A stretch of DNA of 64,000 nucleotides, taken from positions 62,001-126,000 of the forward strand of contig NZ_AAWL01000003.1 of the NCBI RefSeq assembly GCF_000169155.1, given 5' to 3'. Source of the stretch: Thermosinus carboxydivorans Nor1. Lineage in GTDB: Bacteria; Bacillota; Negativicutes; Sporomusales; Thermosinaceae. Position numbers and translations under genes: made by a program. The notes beneath the pieces were generated by a model, which was not told the origin of the DNA, made no database searches, and saw nothing but the letters and a program-made list of their open reading frames with translations. Shown one piece after another: positions 11,465 through 22,106 of the stretch (within the stretch, counting starts at the first letter, position 1; each line of letters starts with the position of its first letter).

Positions 11465-12574
11465 ATGTTTCGCCTGAAGCGGCAAATTATCTGGTGCGAC
11501 CTTAGCGTCCTTTGCGGTTTGTTAATAAGACGCGTGAGCGCGGTTGTCCTTATGCTGGCCTTGGTGTTTGTCCTGGCGGGGCCGGCGCCGGCCGAAGCAG
11601 CGCTTATCAGTACCAAGGAAGAAATATCGATCGGCCGCGATGTGGCCAAGGATTTGGAAAAAAAATACGGCCTGGTCGACGACCCGGCCTTACAGGAGCG
11701 GGTTGCCCGCATTGGCGCCCGCCTGGTAGAAGTGTGTGACCGCAAAGAACTGCCATATACCTTTAAGGTGTTAAATTCCAAGGAAGTCAATGCCTTGTCC
11801 CTGCCGGGCGGTTTTATTTACGTGTTTAAGGGTCTGGTAGACTATATGCCGTCCGACGAAGAGTTGGCCGGTGTTCTGGGCCATGAGCTTGGACACGTCG
11901 TCAAGCGGCACAGCGTGCGCCAGATGGAAAAGAGCCTGGCGGTAAGCCTGATTTTCGGCGCCGTGCTGGGTGATCGGGCAGCACTTTTGCAAAATTTGGC
12001 CTATAACGCGATTATGGCCGGGTACAGTCGCGACGACGAGCGTGAGGCCGACTATCTCGGTTATCTTTATAGTACGCGGGCGGGCTACAACCCCTACAGC
12101 ATGATCATGGCCATGCAAAAACTGGCTGACTTGGAGAATAAACCCAGTTATGGCATCTTTTCGTCTCACCCCGAGCCGGAAGCACGGCTGGGGCGACTGC
12201 AAGCGTACATAAAAAAAGACAATATCCGGCCTCAGGTCATCGTCAGCGGCAAAAGCGCCCAGGTCGTGGACGGCACATGGCAGCTGCCGGCTTTTTTCAG
12301 TGCCTACAATAACTATAAACCGATATACCGCGCCTATTTCACCGCTGGCGCTCTCTATCAGGTGGCTCAACACTATCCTAATTTGTCTGGCGACTACTTC
12401 TATTTGACCAGCGACGGTACCAACATGACCGTCTACTATGACGACATGGCCATTACTACTCTTACGCCGGCCGATGCGGCCGATCACGGCCAGGACCTGG
12501 CCGCCTTTGCGGAAAACTATGTGCTTAAGCTGCGGGAATGGGCCGAGCGGCGCCGTACGGCCGCGACGGATTAA
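11465..12574 (+). CDS. Secreted M48-family zinc metalloprotease
   Basis: 369-residue M48 peptidase. The N-terminus has a hydrophobic export signal (about residues 22-45, ending near PAEAA). The zinc site HELGH is at about residue 140 and the third ligand Glu lies in READYLGYLYS. This is the architecture of BepA/YfgC-like envelope proteases that degrade misfolded exported proteins. The last 110 or so residues after EPEARL show no domain I recognise. AGGAGG precedes the ATG. It is divergent from the hydrogenase operon and has its own terminator. Confidence 0.88.
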   Translation: MFRLKRQIIWCDLSVLCGLLIRRVSAVVLMLALVFVLAGPAPAEAALISTKEEISIGRDVAKDLEKKYGLVDDPALQERVARIGARLVEVCDRKELPYTFKVLNSKEVNALSLPGGFIYVFKGLVDYMPSDEELAGVLGHELGHVVKRHSVRQMEKSLAVSLIFGAVLGDRAALLQNLAYNAIMAGYSRDDEREADYLGYLYSTRAGYNPYSMIMAMQKLADLENKPSYGIFSSHPEPEARLGRLQAYIKKDNIRPQVIVSGKSAQVVDGTWQLPAFFSAYNNYKPIYRAYFTAGALYQVAQHYPNLSGDYFYLTSDGTNMTVYYDDMAITTLTPADAADHGQDLAAFAENYVLKLREWAERRRTAATD

Positions 12575-12636
12575 GTCTCGGCCTGCCACTCTGCCCGGCT
12601 GCGGCGGGCTATCCCGATGGTCGTCTGTGGTGCGAC

Positions 12637-12660
12637 AAAAGCCCCTGCGGGGGCTTTTTT
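12637..12660 (+). terminator. Terminator after the M48 protease gene
   Basis: AAAAGCCCC-TGC-GGGGGCTTTTTT, a short GC-rich stem with a T run. Confidence 0.85.
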
Positions 12661-12678
12661 CTAAGCGGAGGGGAGAGC

Positions 12679-14592
12679 GTGGGCAAGATAACGGTTATAA
12701 TACCATATTCCCAAATGCAGGCGGTCGTGGAACGGACGTTTCAGGAACAGAATGATCCGGGCTGGGAGCTGGATATTATTTTCGCTACCGGGGTACGGGA
12801 GATTGCCCGGCGGCGGGACTTCAGCACTGACGTTGTTGTGGCCCGCGGGGTGACGGCCGCTGCCTTGAAGCGGCTGATGGGCGATACGCCGGTTGTCGAT
12901 ATGCCGGTAAGCGGTTATGATATTCTGCGGGCCGTCAAAGCCTGCCAACAACGCTTTGCCGCCACCAAGATCGCGATTGTCGGTTCCCAGGACATGATTT
13001 ACGGAGCCAAAAGCATCGAAGATATTATGGACATCAAGCTGGCGGTGGTCGAGGTCCGGGAGGAGGATGACGCCGAACAGAGCATCCGGAACATTAAAAA
13101 TAGCGGGGTCGATATTGTCATCGGCGGGGTAATGTCGACGCAGATTGCCGAACGTCTGGGGCTTAAAACCGTGTTTATCGAAACCGGCCGGGAAGCGATC
13201 TATCATGCCCTGCGGGAAGCGAAACGGGTCGCCCGTGTGCGACGCCAGGAGCAGGAGCGCAGCGAACAATTCCGCACCATTCTCGACTATTCGACCGAGG
13301 GCATTATTACGGTGGATGCCGCCGGCGCCATTAATTTGGTGAATGCCGCCGCCATGAAAATAACCGGCTTGTCCGGAGAGGCGGTCGGCTTGGCTGTTGA
13401 CAAGCTGTTGCCCCAGCTGGGCTTGAGCCGGGTGCTGGCGTCCGGTCGGGCCGAGCTTGGCGAGGTCGAAACGGTGAACGGACAGCAAGTGGCCGTCAAC
13501 CGGGTGCCTATCATTATCAGGGGCCAGGCGGTCGGGGCGGTGGCCACCTTTCAGCCGGTAGCCGACATTCAAGCTCTGGAGGGAAAAATCAGGCAGAAAA
13601 TTTATAAGCGCGGTCTTGTCGCCCGGTTGACGTTTGACGATATCCTGGGCGACAGCCCGGCCATCCGCCAGACAATCGCCATCGCTCGCGAGTTCAGCAA
13701 GGTAAACTCCAATGTATTAATCACCGGTGAAACGGGAACGGGTAAGGAGATTTTCGCCCAGAGCATTCATAACGCCAGCAGCCGCCGCAAGGGGCCGTTC
13801 GTAGCGGTCAACTGCGCCGCTTTGCCGGAAAACCTGCTGGAAAGCGAACTGTTCGGCTACGCCGAAGGCGCATTTACCGGCGCGGCGCGCGGCGGCAAGA
13901 TGGGCTTGTTTGAACTGGCCCACGGCGGCACGATTTTTCTCGATGAAATCTCGGAAATCTCCCCCAAACTGCAGGGACGGCTGCTCAGGGTCCTGCAGGA
14001 ACGGGAAATTATGCGCCTTGGCGACGACCGGGTCATTCCGGTCGATGTCCGCATTATTGCCGCGACCAACCGCGACCTGTACCAAATGATGCAGGCCGGC
14101 CTGTTCCGCCAGGACCTTTATTACCGGGTGGACGTGCTGAAACTGGTCCTTCCGCCGCTTAGGGAGCGGCAGGAGGATATTATCCCTCTCATGCAGCATT
14201 TCCTCAAGCTATATTGTCTGCGGTCCAACCGGCCGGTCAAGGAAATCGGCCCTGACGCCCAGGCGATGCTCCGCCGGTATCACTGGCCGGGCAATGTGCG
14301 GGAATTGCGTAATATTGCCGAGCGGCTGGCGGTCTTGGCCAGCGGTCCGGTTATCGGGGCGCGCGACATTGCGGCTGTCCTTACCGGGGAGACAGGCAGG
14401 AGAAAGGCGATAAACGAGACGGCTGAGCCGGCCGCGGCGCTTGCCGGAGCCAATGATGTGGACCTTAACCGGGCCATCCTGCTAAAAGCGTTGGAAGAAG
14501 CGGACTACCATTACGGCCGGGCCGCGGCCAGGCTTGGCATCAGCCGGACGACGCTGTGGCGGCGCCTTAAGCAATACCAGGTAGGGGAATAG
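12679..14592 (+). CDS. PrpR-type sigma-54-dependent activator
   Basis: Enhancer-binding protein of about 637 residues. The N-terminal PrpR_N sensor domain (about 1-190) is the small-ligand domain known from the propionate activator PrpR. It is followed by a PAS domain (about 200-300), an AAA+ domain (Walker A GETGTGKE and the sigma-54 contact loop GAFTGA) and a C-terminal Fis HTH (GISRTTLWRRL). The GTG at 12679 is chosen because GGAGGGGA precedes it. The longer frame reads back through the terminator. The next promoter is of the -24/-12 type, so it very likely drives the CODH-like operon. The signal is unknown. Confidence 0.9.
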   Translation: MGKITVIIPYSQMQAVVERTFQEQNDPGWELDIIFATGVREIARRRDFSTDVVVARGVTAAALKRLMGDTPVVDMPVSGYDILRAVKACQQRFAATKIAIVGSQDMIYGAKSIEDIMDIKLAVVEVREEDDAEQSIRNIKNSGVDIVIGGVMSTQIAERLGLKTVFIETGREAIYHALREAKRVARVRRQEQERSEQFRTILDYSTEGIITVDAAGAINLVNAAAMKITGLSGEAVGLAVDKLLPQLGLSRVLASGRAELGEVETVNGQQVAVNRVPIIIRGQAVGAVATFQPVADIQALEGKIRQKIYKRGLVARLTFDDILGDSPAIRQTIAIAREFSKVNSNVLITGETGTGKEIFAQSIHNASSRRKGPFVAVNCAALPENLLESELFGYAEGAFTGAARGGKMGLFELAHGGTIFLDEISEISPKLQGRLLRVLQEREIMRLGDDRVIPVDVRIIAATNRDLYQMMQAGLFRQDLYYRVDVLKLVLPPLRERQEDIIPLMQHFLKLYCLRSNRPVKEIGPDAQAMLRRYHWPGNVRELRNIAERLAVLASGPVIGARDIAAVLTGETGRRKAINETAEPAAALAGANDVDLNRAILLKALEEADYHYGRAAARLGISRTTLWRRLKQYQVGE

Positions 14593-14810: not shown

Positions 14811-15557
14811 GTGAAAGTCGACGAGACAAAGTGTTTGGGTTGCGGACGTTGTCGGGCGTACTGCACGATGGGGGCGATCCGCTTTACCCGCGACGACCGC
14901 GGCCGGGTGGTGGCCGAGGTTGACCAGCACGAATGCGTAGACTGTGGCGTGTGTTTCCGCGCCCAAGTCTGCCCGGGCGATGCGCTCTACGAACCAGTGC
15001 CGCAGTGGCCCCGGTCGGTGCGCGGCACGTTCAGCAATCCCCTGGTAGAGCACAAGGAGACGCGTATTCCCGGACGGGGCACCGAAGAAATGAAAACCAA
15101 CGATGTTACCGGCCGCTTTAAGTGGGGCGAGGCCGGCATGGCCGTGGAAATGGGCCGGCCGGGCATGGGGGCGCGGTTTACTGACATTGAAAAAGTGGCC
15201 ATGGCCATTGCTGCCCTGGGCGATATCACGTTTGAACCGAAAAACCCCCTTACCAGCCTGATGGTCGATAAGAAGACCGGCAAAATGCATCCGGAAGTAA
15301 TGGACGAAAAGGTGCTGTCGGCCATTATCGAAATGACGGTGCCGCTGGCGCGCGTACCGGAGGTCATTGACGCGGTCCGGAGAGTTGCCAAAAAGATCAA
15401 TACCGTGTGCAGTTTCGACCTGACCTGCAAGGTCCACCCCGGCGACACGCTGCCGGCCTTTGAGTTGGCGCAAGCGGCCGGGGTGCAGCCCACGCCCAAC
15501 GGCAAGACCAACGTGGGGCTGGGCAGACCCCTGTTTGTGGAGGAGGTGCGGCAATGA
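14811..15557 (+). CDS. Dicluster ferredoxin fused to an unrecognised domain
   Basis: 248-residue protein. Residues 1-65 form a ferredoxin with CLGCGRCRAYC and CVDCGVCFRAQVC, likely two [4Fe-4S] clusters. The remaining 180 residues (from about RGTFSNP) are a domain I do not recognise, with conserved-looking FKWGEAGMAVEMGRPG and VCSFDLTCKVHPGD segments. The start is GTG after GAAAGGAG. It is first in a sigma-54 operon with a CODH-like enzyme, and its stop overlaps the next start by four bases. It may be an electron carrier or scaffold for the CODH-like complex (inference). Confidence 0.75.
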   Translation: MKVDETKCLGCGRCRAYCTMGAIRFTRDDRGRVVAEVDQHECVDCGVCFRAQVCPGDALYEPVPQWPRSVRGTFSNPLVEHKETRIPGRGTEEMKTNDVTGRFKWGEAGMAVEMGRPGMGARFTDIEKVAMAIAALGDITFEPKNPLTSLMVDKKTGKMHPEVMDEKVLSAIIEMTVPLARVPEVIDAVRRVAKKINTVCSFDLTCKVHPGDTLPAFELAQAAGVQPTPNGKTNVGLGRPLFVEEVRQ

Positions 15558-16195
15558 GCCATACATTGCACCGGCGCGGCACAACCGACAGTCTGAAAAA
15601 CGATTATGTCATCTTTGCCATGTCGGCCAAAGGAATCAACGAAGCGGGGTCTCATGTCAAACTGCAGCGTTTTCTTGAGATTATCCGCCAGTTTAATCCG
15701 GTGAACCTTGGCGACATGAAAACCGGCAATTCTTTTATTACTTCTCCGGAAACTATCATCGGCAATACCAAGGACACTTCCATTGTCCACGGCGTGTTTG
15801 ACAACCGGGAGGCGCTGATTAAAGCCCTCAAGGCGGTCAAGGAAGCCGACCTGGGTGTGTCGGTCATTATTTCCGGACTGCTCGACGACGTGCACGAATG
15901 CTGCCGCCAGGCGGGCGTCGACCGCCATACCTGCGAGACGTCGCTTGGTATCTGGGGTAAGACCGAACGGCTGCCCGACGAGGATATCCTGCGCTTTACG
16001 ACGATGTGCGGCCACGGGATGGTCGCGTTCAGTCTGGTAAAGAAAATGATCGAGGATATCAAGGCCGGCCGGCGCACTGTCCGGGAAGCGGCCGAAGAAC
16101 TGGCCAAACCGTGCCAGTGCGGCGTGTTTAACCCGAGCCGGGCCGCCGCCATGCTTGAAGAAATTTTATGCCTGTGGGGGGTTAGGATTGCCTAA
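15554..16195 (+). CDS. Unknown protein of the CODH-like operon
   Basis: 213 residues, soluble, no signal or membrane segment. I do not recognise a family. Visible features are an N-terminal FAMSAKGINEAGSH segment, a central VSVIISGLLDDVHECCRQAGV segment with adjacent cysteines, TTMCGHGMVAF, and a C-terminal PCQCGVFNPSRAA motif. The Cys and Gly-His content would suit metal or cofactor binding. The four-base overlap with the ferredoxin fusion gene implies coupled translation and perhaps a complex. Confidence 0.65.
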   Translation: MSHTLHRRGTTDSLKNDYVIFAMSAKGINEAGSHVKLQRFLEIIRQFNPVNLGDMKTGNSFITSPETIIGNTKDTSIVHGVFDNREALIKALKAVKEADLGVSVIISGLLDDVHECCRQAGVDRHTCETSLGIWGKTERLPDEDILRFTTMCGHGMVAFSLVKKMIEDIKAGRRTVREAAEELAKPCQCGVFNPSRAAAMLEEILCLWGVRIA

Positions 16196-16228
16196 CCGGC
16201 CGACAGGCGGTAAAGGACGGTGGATGGT

Positions 16229-16783
16229 ATGAAACGGATATGGGTTGACCGTGATAAATGCCTGGGTTGCAAAACCTGTGAACTGCAATGCGCCGTGGAA
16301 CGGAATTCAGTCGCCAAAACACTGGTCGGGGCCGTCCGGGAAAATCCCAAACCGGTAGCGCGGGTAGAGGTATCCGGGCCGACCGGGGCCAGTTTCCCGC
16401 TCCAGTGCCGGCACTGTCAGGACGCGGCCTGTCTGAAAGCCTGTCCGTCCGGCGCGATGCGGCGCAGTGACGAGTGGCAAACGGTTTATGTTGATCAGTC
16501 CCAATGCCGGGGCTGCTGGATGTGCGTCATGGTCTGCCCGTTCGGGGCGGTGACGCCGCTACCTGCATACAAGGTAGCTCACAAGTGCGACGCCTGCGTG
16601 GATATGGAGGAGCCGGCCTGTGTGGCTTCTTGCCCTACCGGCGCGCTTTATTACGGGGATGAGGCGGCGTATGAGAAAGCGCTGGCGGCCAGGCGCGGCC
16701 GCATTGCCGTCTTTGTTAAACAAGCGCCGGGCGTGGGTCGGACGAATGTTGTCAGCCTAGATTTCGTGCGGGAGGATGAGTAG
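16229..16783 (+). CDS. CooF-like polyferredoxin
   Basis: Iron-sulfur electron-transfer protein of about 184 residues in the CooF/HycB/DmsB family. Four Cys groups can be seen: CLGCKTCELQC, CRHCQDAACLKAC, CRGCWMCVMVC, and CDACVDMEEPACVASC with its partners, consistent with four [4Fe-4S] clusters. CooF proteins carry electrons from CO dehydrogenase to hydrogenases or other acceptors. It lies three bases before the CODH-like gene. The ATG at 16229 is preferred. An in-frame GTG three codons earlier is possible. Confidence 0.88.
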   Translation: MKRIWVDRDKCLGCKTCELQCAVERNSVAKTLVGAVRENPKPVARVEVSGPTGASFPLQCRHCQDAACLKACPSGAMRRSDEWQTVYVDQSQCRGCWMCVMVCPFGAVTPLPAYKVAHKCDACVDMEEPACVASCPTGALYYGDEAAYEKALAARRGRIAVFVKQAPGVGRTNVVSLDFVREDE

Positions 16784-16786
16784 ACG

Positions 16787-18235
16787 ATGAAACAAGTGCG
16801 CAAGAAATCAGCCGATGCGGCGGTTAACCAAATGATTATAAAAGCGTACCGCAGTCAGACCGAACTTACCTGGGACCGGGCCGAAGCCATGCAGCCCCAA
16901 TGCGGGTTCGGCCGGCTGAGTATTTGCTGCAGCGACTGCTATGACGGCCCGTGCCGCGTTAATCCCTTTGCCACGGTCGAGCAGCGCACCATCTGCGGCC
17001 GGGGCCAAAAGGAACTGGCGGCAGGCTATTTTCTGCGGAAAGTGACGGACGGCGCGGCCGGCCTTGTGCAACTGGCCGCCGAATTTGGCGCTCCTGTTAG
17101 CCAGGATATGTGGGAAGCGGTAGTGTGTTCTGGCGATGACATGCTGGCGCCCACTGCCGGTACGGAGCGGCTGGCGGCGGCCGGGCGGGCCGCCGTCCAA
17201 GCGCTCGCGGCAATCGCCGAAGTGAAGGAGCGCATGTGCGATCAGGCAGCACCGGGGGTCACCCAGGCCGGTCTGGGAACGCTCAAAGCCGAGATGCCCA
17301 ACATTGTCCTGCACGGTCATATTGCGCCCCAAGTGGTTGAGTTACTCGTTCAGGCGGCAGAACGCTCTGGGACGGTCAATATAGTTGCCATGTGCGGCAA
17401 TGAGCTGGGCGCTCCTCATCATTTGCCGGCCCTTACCAATTACCAGTCCCAGGAAACGCCGCTGTTAACTGGCGCCGTTGACCTGTTGATCATTGGCTCT
17501 CAGTGCGTAATGCCGGCGACGTTGTCCTTGGCCGAGCAGCTTAACGTGCCGGTGGTGAAGGCTGCGGCTCTCCGGGATGCCCAGGCTGCTGCGCAGGCTA
17601 TCGCCATGGCGCAAGAAGCTTTCCGTCGCCGCAATGGTCGTAGTGTTGATATTCCCGCAGCGTCAGCCGCCGTCCAGGCGGGCTTTACGGCTAACAGCGC
17701 GGCGGTAGCGGCCGGCCTGGTGAAAGGTTATGGCCAGGGGATTGTCCGTGGGGCTATCTACCTCGGCGGCTGCGGTCAGTTAGCCGCTACCCAGGATGCG
17801 GCGATTGTCCAGTTGGCGCAAGAACTGCTCGCCGACGACTACTTGGTTGTTACCGGCGGCTGCGCCGGGGTGGCTTTGGCCAAAGCCGGACTGTGCCGTC
17901 CGGACGCCGCTGAAGGCGAGGCCCTGCGGTCGGTACTGCCGCACGGTGTCCCGGCGGTTCTTTCGATTGGTTCCTGTCATGACGCCGGCGAGTTTCTGCG
18001 TTTGGCTGGGGCGTTGCAAGCGAGCGGTATTCCGGTGACTGCCGTTATGCCGGAGGTTACCCATGGCAAAGTTTTGGCTACGGCCGTCGGTTTTGCCGGA
18101 CAAGGCATTGTTACTTTCCTGGGCCTGGGCGAAGCGGCGGAGGTCAGCGGCCTTTACGGTGAGGAGCGGCTGCTGCCCTTGACCGATTTACGGCAACTGC
18201 CGCAGGCGTTGGCCGAAGTTGCCGCCGCCCAATAA
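16787..18235 (+). CDS. Short CooS-like (mini-CODH) Ni-Fe-S protein
   Basis: 482-residue homologue of anaerobic Ni CO dehydrogenase, whose usual length is about 630-640. The D/B-cluster cysteines are all present (39, 47, 48, 51, 56, 70). C-cluster ligand equivalents are His176/178 in LHGH, Cys203, Cys240, Cys329, Cys359 and Cys397, and the active-site Lys equivalent is Lys428 in THGK. Missing is the helical region around residues 80-170 of full-length CODH, including the catalytic His and the following histidine ladder (H-x2-H-x2-H pattern). The neighbours are a CooF-like carrier and an FAD oxidoreductase. It may oxidise CO by another proton route or act on another substrate. Confidence 0.85.
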   Translation: MKQVRKKSADAAVNQMIIKAYRSQTELTWDRAEAMQPQCGFGRLSICCSDCYDGPCRVNPFATVEQRTICGRGQKELAAGYFLRKVTDGAAGLVQLAAEFGAPVSQDMWEAVVCSGDDMLAPTAGTERLAAAGRAAVQALAAIAEVKERMCDQAAPGVTQAGLGTLKAEMPNIVLHGHIAPQVVELLVQAAERSGTVNIVAMCGNELGAPHHLPALTNYQSQETPLLTGAVDLLIIGSQCVMPATLSLAEQLNVPVVKAAALRDAQAAAQAIAMAQEAFRRRNGRSVDIPAASAAVQAGFTANSAAVAAGLVKGYGQGIVRGAIYLGGCGQLAATQDAAIVQLAQELLADDYLVVTGGCAGVALAKAGLCRPDAAEGEALRSVLPHGVPAVLSIGSCHDAGEFLRLAGALQASGIPVTAVMPEVTHGKVLATAVGFAGQGIVTFLGLGEAAEVSGLYGEERLLPLTDLRQLPQALAEVAAAQ

Positions 18236-18253: not shown

Positions 18254-19465
18254 ATGTATGTCATAATTGGTCAGGGGGCGGCCGGAACGGCTGCCGCCAA
18301 TACCTTGCGGCGGCTGGACGGGAAAAAGGCGATAACGGTAATAACCAGGGAAACCGATTATTTTTACAGCCGCGTCGACCTGCCCGACATTATCGCCGGG
18401 TATTACCCGCCGTCGGCCGCGGTGCTGCAGACCCATGAACGGTTTGCCGAACTGGGGATAACCTGCCGGATGGGGGAGACGGTCACGGCGATAATGCCGG
18501 ACAAGAAAATCGTTCGGCTGGCCGGCGGCGAATGTCTGGAATATGAGAAACTGCTGGTGGCGACGGGATCGGCGCCGGTCCTGCCGCCTATCGCTGGCCT
18601 GGAGGCGAAAGGAGTTTATACCCTCTGGACGATGGCCCAGGCGGAGGCCATTATCCGGGCTGCCGCCAGGGCGCGCGCTGCCGTGGTCATTGGCGCCGGC
18701 CTGATCGGCGTCAAGACGGCCCTGGCCCTTGCGGCGCGGGGGCTGACCGTTACCCTTGTCGAAAAGCTGCCGCGCGTTTTGCCCCGCCAGGTGGACGCGG
18801 CGGCGGCCGAAATTGTGGCGCGCCGCATAGCGGAAAAGGGCGTTGCAGTCATGACCGGGACGGTGGTGGAAGGCATCGTGACTGAGGACGGCGCCATTAC
18901 CGGGGTGAAAGTGGCCGGTCAAACGCTGGCCTGCGAGCTGGCGGTGGTGGCGGTTGGCGTCCGGCCTGACGCCGGGCTGGCCGCGCAGGCCGGACTCAAA
19001 GTGCGCCGCGGCATTGTCGTTGACCGTTTTCTCCAGACGTCGCTGCCTGACATTTATGCTGCCGGCGATGTTGCCGAAGTGCCGGACCTGACCGGGGGGT
19101 ATAGCATCCCGGCTCTCTGGCCGGTAGCAGTGGAGCAGGGGCAAGTTGCCGCCCGCAACATGGCCGGCCGCAAAACGGCCTATACGCCGGTTCCGGCGAT
19201 GAACGCGGTGGAAGTAGCGGGCCTGCCGCTTATTGCGGTCGGCGACGTCGAAGGCGGTCCTGGCGACGACATTCTCGTTGCCGCCCGGGGAGATAATTAC
19301 AAAAAGCTCGTCATCCGCGACAAAATCGTCCGCGGGGTGCTGTGCCTTGGCGACATCCGCCAGGCCGGGGTGCTGGGCGGGCTGGTTTTCCGCCAGGCGG
19401 AGGTCAGGTCGGCAAAACGGCTGCTGGCGCCGGATTTTGGGTTTGTCGATTTGCTTGCAATGTAA
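18254..19465 (+). CDS. FAD/NAD(P)-dependent oxidoreductase of the CODH-like operon
   Basis: 403-residue pyridine nucleotide-disulfide-type oxidoreductase, NADH/rubredoxin reductase-like. FAD motif IGQGAAGTAAANTL is at the N-terminus, NAD(P) motif VIGAGLIGVKTALALAARG is near residue 150, and the second FAD motif IYAAGDVAE is near residue 270. It follows the CODH-like gene by 18 bases with GGAGGCG upstream. In CODH-CooF-oxidoreductase clusters this enzyme passes electrons between the ferredoxin and NAD(P). The same role is inferred here. Confidence 0.87.
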   Translation: MYVIIGQGAAGTAAANTLRRLDGKKAITVITRETDYFYSRVDLPDIIAGYYPPSAAVLQTHERFAELGITCRMGETVTAIMPDKKIVRLAGGECLEYEKLLVATGSAPVLPPIAGLEAKGVYTLWTMAQAEAIIRAAARARAAVVIGAGLIGVKTALALAARGLTVTLVEKLPRVLPRQVDAAAAEIVARRIAEKGVAVMTGTVVEGIVTEDGAITGVKVAGQTLACELAVVAVGVRPDAGLAAQAGLKVRRGIVVDRFLQTSLPDIYAAGDVAEVPDLTGGYSIPALWPVAVEQGQVAARNMAGRKTAYTPVPAMNAVEVAGLPLIAVGDVEGGPGDDILVAARGDNYKKLVIRDKIVRGVLCLGDIRQAGVLGGLVFRQAEVRSAKRLLAPDFGFVDLLAM

Positions 19466-19536
19466 ATATATGTAAATAAACGGGGAAGGAATGATAGTTA
19501 TGGCTGTTATTACTAAGGAGTCACATAGGGGGCAGG

Positions 19537-20581: not shown

Positions 20582-21655
20582 ATGAACATTGCACTCATGC
20601 TTGCGACCGGGGTGGTCTTCGGCCTTGGCGCCGTTTTGCTCGTTAAGCTGGGCAATCCCGGCAACTATGGGTTTTGCGCCGCCTGCCACCTGCGGGACAT
20701 TGCCGGGGCGCTCGGTATTCACCAAGCCGCAACGCTGCAGTATGCCCGGCCGGAGGTTCTGGGTTGGGTGTTGGGCGCCTTCGGCATGGCCAAAGCATCC
20801 GGCCAGTTCCGGCCGCGGGGTGGGTCGCGGCCGATGGTACGGTTTATCCTGGGGATGACAATGATGATAGGCGCCTTAGTGTTTCTTGGCTGTCCGCTGC
20901 GGGCCATCTTGCGGCTGGCGGCCGGCGACCTTAACGGTATTACCGGGTTGGCCGGCTTCGCCGCTGGCATTGGCGCCGGTATTTATTTCCTCAAACAGGG
21001 CTTTAACCTGGGCCGGGCCCGTCTGCACAGCGCCGCCGGCAGTTTGGCCGGTTATCTGGCGGCAGCCGTGGCGTTAGGTTTAGTTTTGGCTGTCCTGGTT
21101 AAGTCGCCGCTGCTTAATTTTAGCGCCAAAGGCCCTGGTTCATTGCACGCGCCGGTTTGGGCCAGCCTGGCGGCGGGACTGGCAGCCGGAGCGCTCGCCT
21201 GGCGCACGCGGATGTGTCTGAGCGGCGGTATCCGCGATTTTTTACTAGTAGGCGACACCTACCTCTTGAAAATTTACGGCGTTATGTTTCTCGCCGCTTT
21301 AGCCGGCAATATGTATTTCGGCTTTTTTAAGCTGGGCTTTATTAACCAGCCGTTAGCCCATACCATGCATATCTGGAATTTCCTCGGCCTGTTTGTTACC
21401 GGCCTGGCGGCGACGCTGGCCGGCGGCTGTCCGCTGCGCCAGCTCATTATGGCCGGCGAAGGCAATACTGATGCCATGATCTGCGTACTTGGCATGCTGG
21501 TCGGGGCGGGTATTGCCCATACGCTGAACACGGCCGCTTCACCGGCCGGTGTGGCCTTTAACGGGCAGGTCGCTGTTAGCATTGCCTTAGCCGTCACGGC
21601 CGTCATTGGCTGGATGTATCGTGAAAAACAGGCAGTTGCCGTGGAAGGAGTGTAG
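20582..21655 (+). CDS. yedE: YedE/YeeE-family membrane transporter, putative selenium transport
   Basis: 357-residue polytopic membrane protein with about nine to ten helices. It belongs to the YeeE/YedE family, in which signature cysteines line a thiosulfate or selenium-compound path. The corresponding segments here are FLGCPLRAI, RMCLSGGIRDF and AGGCPLRQLI, plus NYGFCAACHLRD near the N-terminus. It is followed after three bases by a TusA-like gene and then a DUF3343 gene, the arrangement seen in putative selenium-metabolism clusters. The substrate is inferred, not shown. Confidence 0.87.
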   Translation: MNIALMLATGVVFGLGAVLLVKLGNPGNYGFCAACHLRDIAGALGIHQAATLQYARPEVLGWVLGAFGMAKASGQFRPRGGSRPMVRFILGMTMMIGALVFLGCPLRAILRLAAGDLNGITGLAGFAAGIGAGIYFLKQGFNLGRARLHSAAGSLAGYLAAAVALGLVLAVLVKSPLLNFSAKGPGSLHAPVWASLAAGLAAGALAWRTRMCLSGGIRDFLLVGDTYLLKIYGVMFLAALAGNMYFGFFKLGFINQPLAHTMHIWNFLGLFVTGLAATLAGGCPLRQLIMAGEGNTDAMICVLGMLVGAGIAHTLNTAASPAGVAFNGQVAVSIALAVTAVIGWMYREKQAVAVEGV

Positions 21656-21658
21656 AGA

Positions 21659-21868
21659 ATGGACAAAGTATTGGACCTGCGGGGTTTGAGCTGTCCCATT
21701 CCCCTCATCAAAACCCGTGATGCTTTGCGAGACAGCAAGGTGGTCACTGTTCTGGTCGACGATATGCCGCCGAAAGAAAACATCCTGCGCTTTGCCAAGT
21801 CGCAGGGCTATAAAGTTGACTGCCAGGAGCGCGCGGGCGAATATACCATCCGTATTTGCCGGGAGTAA
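21659..21868 (+). CDS. TusA/SirA-family sulfur carrier
   Basis: 69-residue TusA-like protein with the conserved CPIP motif (Cys13) that carries persulfide or selenium-sulfur. It is typical of the small partner of YedE transporters. It lies three bases after yedE and four before the DUF3343 gene, so the three form one operon. Confidence 0.92.
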   Translation: MDKVLDLRGLSCPIPLIKTRDALRDSKVVTVLVDDMPPKENILRFAKSQGYKVDCQERAGEYTIRICRE

Positions 21869-21872
21869 GACC

Positions 21873-22106
21873 ATGGAGCAGACGGTTATCACTTTCCCCT
21901 CTGTCGCCCATGCTTTTCGGGCGGAGAAACTACTTGGCCAGCGGGGCTTGAGCGTTCGCCTTATTCCCGTGCCGCGGGCCCTGTCCGGCTCTTGCGAGGG
22001 GCTGGCTGCGGTCGTAGCCGATGAACAGGTGGCGGCGGCGGTAGAGCTATTGGCCGCCGCCGGGGTGGCCATGTTGTATAAAGGCGTCAAAGTAAAGATA
22101 GATTAG
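21873..22106 (+). CDS. DUF3343 protein
   Basis: 77-residue DUF3343 protein (FPSVAHAFRAEKLL, then the SGSCEGLAAVV segment with a single Cys). DUF3343 proteins usually accompany YedE and TusA-like proteins or are fused to them. They may be the acceptor in sulfur/selenium relay. The exact function is unknown. Confidence 0.82.
   Translation: MEQTVITFPSVAHAFRAEKLLGQRGLSVRLIPVPRALSGSCEGLAAVVADEQVAAAVELLAAAGVAMLYKGVKVKID

Follow-up and report, generated by a model that had tools for sequence, protein, structure and literature searches.

A mini-CooS protein with a complete metal-cluster ligand set and a substituted histidine helix lies in a conserved module with a two-gene Fe-S family

Short forms of the CO dehydrogenase (CODH) CooS, termed mini-CooS, have already been described, according to the available text of one article (PMC8776680, citing Techtmann 2012). 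It has also been published that CODHs of clades C, D and G have Tyr or Asn in place of the acid-base His, and that mutations of acid-base residues reduce CO oxidation in known CODHs (PMC6344411). The pairing of CooF and FNOR with a CODH is a published NAD(P)-linked arrangement (PMC6344411, PMC8776680). Here we analyze a 64,000-nucleotide stretch of the Thermosinus carboxydivorans Nor1 genome (contig NZ_AAWL01000003.1, positions 62,001 to 126,000; hereafter the window), which codes for a mini-CooS next to a gene pair designated P2 and P3 (Table 1). Because mini-CooS has been described and the replacement of its acid-base His published, the protein itself is not new. In the literature searched, however, we found neither the P2-P3 module, nor an analysis of the His helix, nor a C-cluster decay series for mini-CooS.

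Table 1. Features of the mini-CooS module, with positions counted from the first nucleotide of the window
Feature	Position	Strand	Basis
PrpR/PrdR-type sigma-54 activator (PrpR_N + PAS + AAA + Fis HTH)	12538..14592	+	family profiles
P2: two [4Fe-4S] ferredoxin motifs and a domain of ~180 aa outside known families (conserved RGTEEMKTNDVTGR)	14811..15557	+	family profiles, alignment
P3: 213 aa, no Pfam/NCBIfam family; conserved MCGHG and CxCGxxN	15554..16195	+	family profiles, alignment
CooF-like polyferredoxin (HydN/DmsB type)	16220..16783	+	family profiles
mini-CooS, CODH fold, 482 aa	16787..18235	+	ORF, family profiles, CODH-II alignment, AlphaFold model
D- and B-cluster Cys: residues 39, 47 / 48, 51, 56, 70	16901..16996	+	CODH-II alignment, nine-homologue comparison
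Equivalent of the CODH-II catalytic-His helix, residues 74-102: His93/96/99/102 = Leu/Leu/Glu/Ala	17006..17092	+	alignment, model
C-cluster set H178, C203, C240, C329, C359, C397 and Lys428	17318..18070	+	CODH-II alignment, nine-homologue comparison
FNOR: NirB/PadH-type FAD-NAD(P) oxidoreductase	18254..19465	+	family profiles
Remnant of the start of a Zn-alcohol dehydrogenase gene, after FNOR	19500..19518	+	sister genome comparison

The short CooS protein matched TIGR01702 with an E value of 3.6e-50 and a score of 170.8 bits, far below the NCBIfam equivalog cut-off of 478 bits, and it also matched PF03063, which assigns it to the CODH/prismane family. An AlphaFold model, predicted from 33 sequences as a monomer without metals or cofactor (mean pLDDT 87), had the whole CODH fold: 477 of the 482 residues were superimposed on CODH-II, CODH-IV and others at 2.2-2.3 Å, with Z ~36 (36.5), as compared to Z 33.9 for CooS-V and Z 27.9 for a class III hybrid cluster protein (HCP). 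In a quick tree with long branches, nine mini-CooS sequences formed a clade (SH-aLRT 99) apart from 41 full-length sequences, which lay across a branch with a support of 95; because of the long branches, the deeper order of the short CooS proteins is unsure. A frameshift, a fusion or a pseudogene was ruled out, as the gene is intact in nine loci and its dN/dS is 0.28. We conclude that the window protein, small and with a complete cluster motif, as mini-CooS is defined, is a mini-CooS of clade G, a known but uncharacterised type. This agrees with an earlier sequence-only reading, in which short CooS forms were held to be known and poorly characterised. The genome also codes for two full-length CODH-family proteins of 641 and 643 aa and for a short HCP-like protein of 439-458 aa (L142-L144, on C4, C7 and C5).

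The first 108 residues of mini-CooS aligned without a gap to CODH-II of Carboxydothermus, so that the two proteins have a common numbering in this region, and the Cys residues of the D (39 and 47) and B clusters (48, 51, 56 and 70) carry the same numbers in both. The C-cluster ligand His178 is the second His of the sequence LHGH, and the five Cys residues of this cluster and the catalytic Lys are likewise present. All 13 ligand and Lys positions were unvarying among nine ligand-complete homologues, which are about 50-90% identical; given that 117 of the 482 positions are invariant in the protein as a whole, this has a hypergeometric P of ~6e-9. The alignment and this invariance both bear out the earlier claim that every D-, B- and C-cluster ligand and Lys428 are kept. 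Cys203 is the likely equivalent of CODH-II Cys295, likely rather than proven because the alignment needs a 2-residue deletion beside it. CooS-V (structural group D-1) and HCP have Glu at this position, whereas Cys203 is found in all nine homologues; thus, the Ni-type ligand set is kept, and a protein of the HCP or CooS-V type was ruled out. As judged from the sequences, the Ni/Fe C-cluster site and the D/B electron wire of mini-CooS are maintained by selection.

The helix that bears the catalytic His in CODH-II also aligned without a gap and is helical in the mini-CooS model (residues 74-99). At the positions of His93, His96, His99 and His102, however, mini-CooS has Leu93, Leu96, Glu99 and Ala102, and Asp219 of CODH-II is replaced by Ala139. 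Position 93, that of the catalytic base, is Leu and not His in the alignment with CODH-II, as it is in all nine ligand-complete homologues, and no His occurs in residues 1-175 of the window protein. The sequence-only reading was therefore right that the metal ligands are kept while the His proton path is gone, and that the segment following the sequence AAG has no His, although AAG lies at residues 90-92 and not at 78-80. It erred in attributing the loss to a missing helical part of roughly 150 residues: the His residues are substituted, not deleted, and the absent block comprises ~81 residues (CODH-II 109-189) downstream of the helix equivalent, the remainder of the 154-residue difference in length being scattered among loops elsewhere and the C-terminus. 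His426, which lies two positions ahead of Lys428, is retained in seven of the nine homologues but is Arg in the other two, and hence is not a general replacement for the lost His. The loss of His93 and Asp219 takes away residues that activate CO2. The sequence-only reading proposed either a different reaction or CO oxidation with another proton route. By analogy to CooS-V, in which a CODH scaffold reduces hydroxylamine slowly and is inactive on CO (PMC9311411), a metal-loaded C-cluster might then carry out another reaction, such as a hydroxylamine- or NO-like detoxification or the conversion of a P2-P3 intermediate. We regard this as unlikely, in view of Cys203 and because the modules contain no recognisable nitrosative-stress genes.

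The genes in the window are arranged in the order sigma-54 activator, P2, P3, CooF, mini-CooS and FNOR, with the genes for CooF and FNOR adjacent to that for mini-CooS, as in CODH-CooF-FNOR clusters. Ligand-complete mini-CooS was found in a module with CooF, FNOR, P2 and P3 in 9/9 loci, in two gene orders; these loci represent the order to which the window organism belongs (six genomes, seven copies) and two Syntrophobacterales MAGs. A first scan of named genomes with a single protein as the query gave no match, and a scan with an alignment as the query recovered two Syntrophobacterales/Syntrophaceae MAGs and Anaerospora. Among 398 Bacillota genomes, short CooS matches at E < 1e-90 numbered six, including that of the window, and all six were within the P2-P3 module; the remaining matches were full length or nearly so, with open frames of at least 591 aa. 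The sigma-54 activator, a homologue of which adjoins the module in two other genomes (G001 and G009), is likely to be the regulator of the module. If mini-CooS were an ordinary CO dehydrogenase that moves protons by another route, and shared an operon with P2-P3 only incidentally, this would fit the replacement of the catalytic His in clades C, D and G (PMC6344411) and the CooF/FNOR clusters, which are considered to support CO oxidation. Nevertheless, the association with P2-P3 is fixed although the gene order was reshuffled, and no full-length CODH match was found on the P3 contig of P3-bearing genomes, and we consider this explanation improbable.

The surroundings of the module vary. In the two MAGs, it is flanked by genes for an acyl-CoA ligase, an MmdA-like carboxyltransferase, an aspartate-glyoxylate-type aminotransferase and TctABC. 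In the sister genome (G001), a Zn-alcohol dehydrogenase gene follows FNOR (L024:1645-2631) and is in turn followed by a MatC-type transporter gene. In the window, about six codons of the dehydrogenase gene are left, and the rest of the window genome has no close copy of it (best 30% identity). None of the genes beside the module was recognised as specific to CO. The four Sporomusales loci with the second gene order (L026-L029) all have a gene for a MetQ/NlpA-type lipoprotein ahead of the module, upstream of CooF, and downstream of the window module, at window positions 20582-22106, lies a gene pair for a YedE-type selenium transporter and a Se/S carrier.

P2 and P3 co-occurred as a pair in every locus examined. 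P3 was present in 20 of 299 Bacillota genomes, in up to nine copies, and on no plasmid. No Pfam family was found for P3, even with 35 members at an E value of 5, which gave scattered weak matches only, and no relevant PDB sequence matched. The P3 model (pLDDT 92) gave a best Foldseek E value of 0.045 and a best VIA-align Z of 6.9, the latter on a common PII-like/ferredoxin-like part; as neither value identifies a confident solved relative, we claim no function from the fold. Where CooS is absent, the pair lies beside genes for transporters (TctABC (TctA), TRAP, GntP, MatC-type or ABC) and for a glycerate kinase, PdxA-like and PanB-like proteins, an HpcH/HpaI aldolase, Zn and Fe alcohol dehydrogenases, a hydantoinase/allantoinase-like protein or a nickel-pincer isomerase. 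This neighborhood suggests a role in organic-acid catabolism. P2-P3 would be an enzyme, and from its gene context it might act on 2-hydroxyacids. That the P3 proteins of mini-CooS modules form a single clade was ruled out: the module label changes four times on the P3 tree, at least two of these changes being forced by strong branches, so that the link to the module was gained or lost on at least two occasions.

Compared with their counterparts in the sister species, P2, P3 and CooF of the window show 97-98% identity and dN/dS of 0.04-0.09, whereas mini-CooS and FNOR, both 88% identical (dN/dS 0.28 and 0.23, respectively), evolve several times faster. By these ratios, mini-CooS is under purifying selection, and both it and FNOR are functional, if less constrained than P2, P3 and CooF. 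Four divergent short CooS proteins, all in the same type of module, form a decay series. L075 is without the ligand His and Lys, and L077 without the His and Cys203; a fifth divergent protein, L141, groups with L077. L060 and L061 (L060:5755-7215 and L061:5411-6976) retain the four B-cluster Cys residues but no ligand of the C or D cluster. The module as such can therefore persist without C-cluster chemistry. Possibly, then, the main role of short CooS is to dock P2-P3 to CooF and FNOR and to pass electrons between them, with a C-cluster that is vestigial or dispensable and was lost in several lineages. The graded loss of ligands, the retention of the B-cluster Cys residues and the much stronger conservation of P2 and P3 all favor this idea. 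A vestigial C-cluster is, however, hard to reconcile with 13 ligand positions that are invariant in the window clade at ~50% overall identity, and the decay series does not show that the window mini-CooS works without C-cluster chemistry. We hold this role to be rather unlikely; it is nonetheless, as is another reaction at the C-cluster, a close rival to the explanation that we prefer.

Our preferred explanation, put forward tentatively and at somewhat less than an even chance, is an NAD(P)-linked redox module built around P2-P3, in which mini-CooS has an intact C-cluster that still carries out CO/CO2 chemistry at a slow rate. P2-P3 would perform the substrate chemistry, and electrons would be exchanged with NAD(P), in either direction, through the FAD of FNOR, CooF and the clusters of mini-CooS. 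In the window lineage, the interconversion of CO and CO2 at the C-cluster has most likely persisted, probably at a slow rate; it could, for example, serve to remove CO produced by or near P2-P3. Protons might travel via Lys428 and other acidic residues, or via solvent admitted by the 81-residue deletion. In this scheme, the enzymatic nature of P2-P3, the physical complex, which way electrons flow, the conversion of CO and CO2 and the path of the protons are inferred. The invariant ligands and Lys, purifying selection, the CODH-fold model, the fixed five-gene loci, the occurrence of 6/6 short CooS proteins in P2-P3 modules, the organic-acid neighbors and the published pairing of CooF/FNOR with CODH speak for this explanation. 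Against it stand the loss of His93, the His ladder and Asp219, together with the published effect of acid-base mutations (PMC6344411), the ligand-free L060 and L061, the faster evolution of mini-CooS and the lack of a recognised CO-specific neighbor.

The constant presence of P2-P3, the adjoining PrpR/PrdR-type activator and the sister proteins without active-site ligands shift the weight towards an unusual role for mini-CooS. It is conceivable, if doubtful, that P2-P3 constitutes an undescribed family of Fe-S organic-acid enzymes that acquired a CODH-derived protein as its dedicated redox subunit, in lineages that span every stage between an intact Ni/Fe site and full ligand loss. In any case, P2-P3 is a conserved Fe-S family of Bacillota that comprises two genes, occurs in multiple copies and lacks curated models; anaerobic bacteria seem to use it in several organic-acid pathways, and an orphan CODH type is now linked to a concrete, testable partner system. 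C-clusters that range from intact to absent at a fixed operon position amount to a natural experiment on CODH scaffolds without CO chemistry, and also bear on which proton-relay residues are dispensable.

Among described proteins, the T. carboxydivorans mini-CooS (WP_007288589; Techtmann 2012, clade G in Inoue 2022) is, as far as the available text of the source goes, likewise a small CODH homologue of divergent sequence whose metal-cluster motif is complete. The window protein has the fold, the D-, B- and C-cluster ligands and the catalytic Lys in common with C. hydrogenoformans CODH-II and CODH-IV, but has other residues in place of the four His of the helix and Asp219 and is without the 81-residue block. 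C. hydrogenoformans CooS-V resembles it in combining a CODH scaffold with altered active-site surroundings, but has Glu at position 295, where the window protein has Cys, and a hybrid Fe/S/O cluster. Class III HCP is also a shorter, homodimeric relative of CODH, but its ligand set is absent from the window protein, and the similarity in both structure and sequence is lower. Finally, the CODH/CooF/FNOR clusters of clades C, D-3, G-1 and others share three redox genes with the window module; modules of the window type always add P2-P3.
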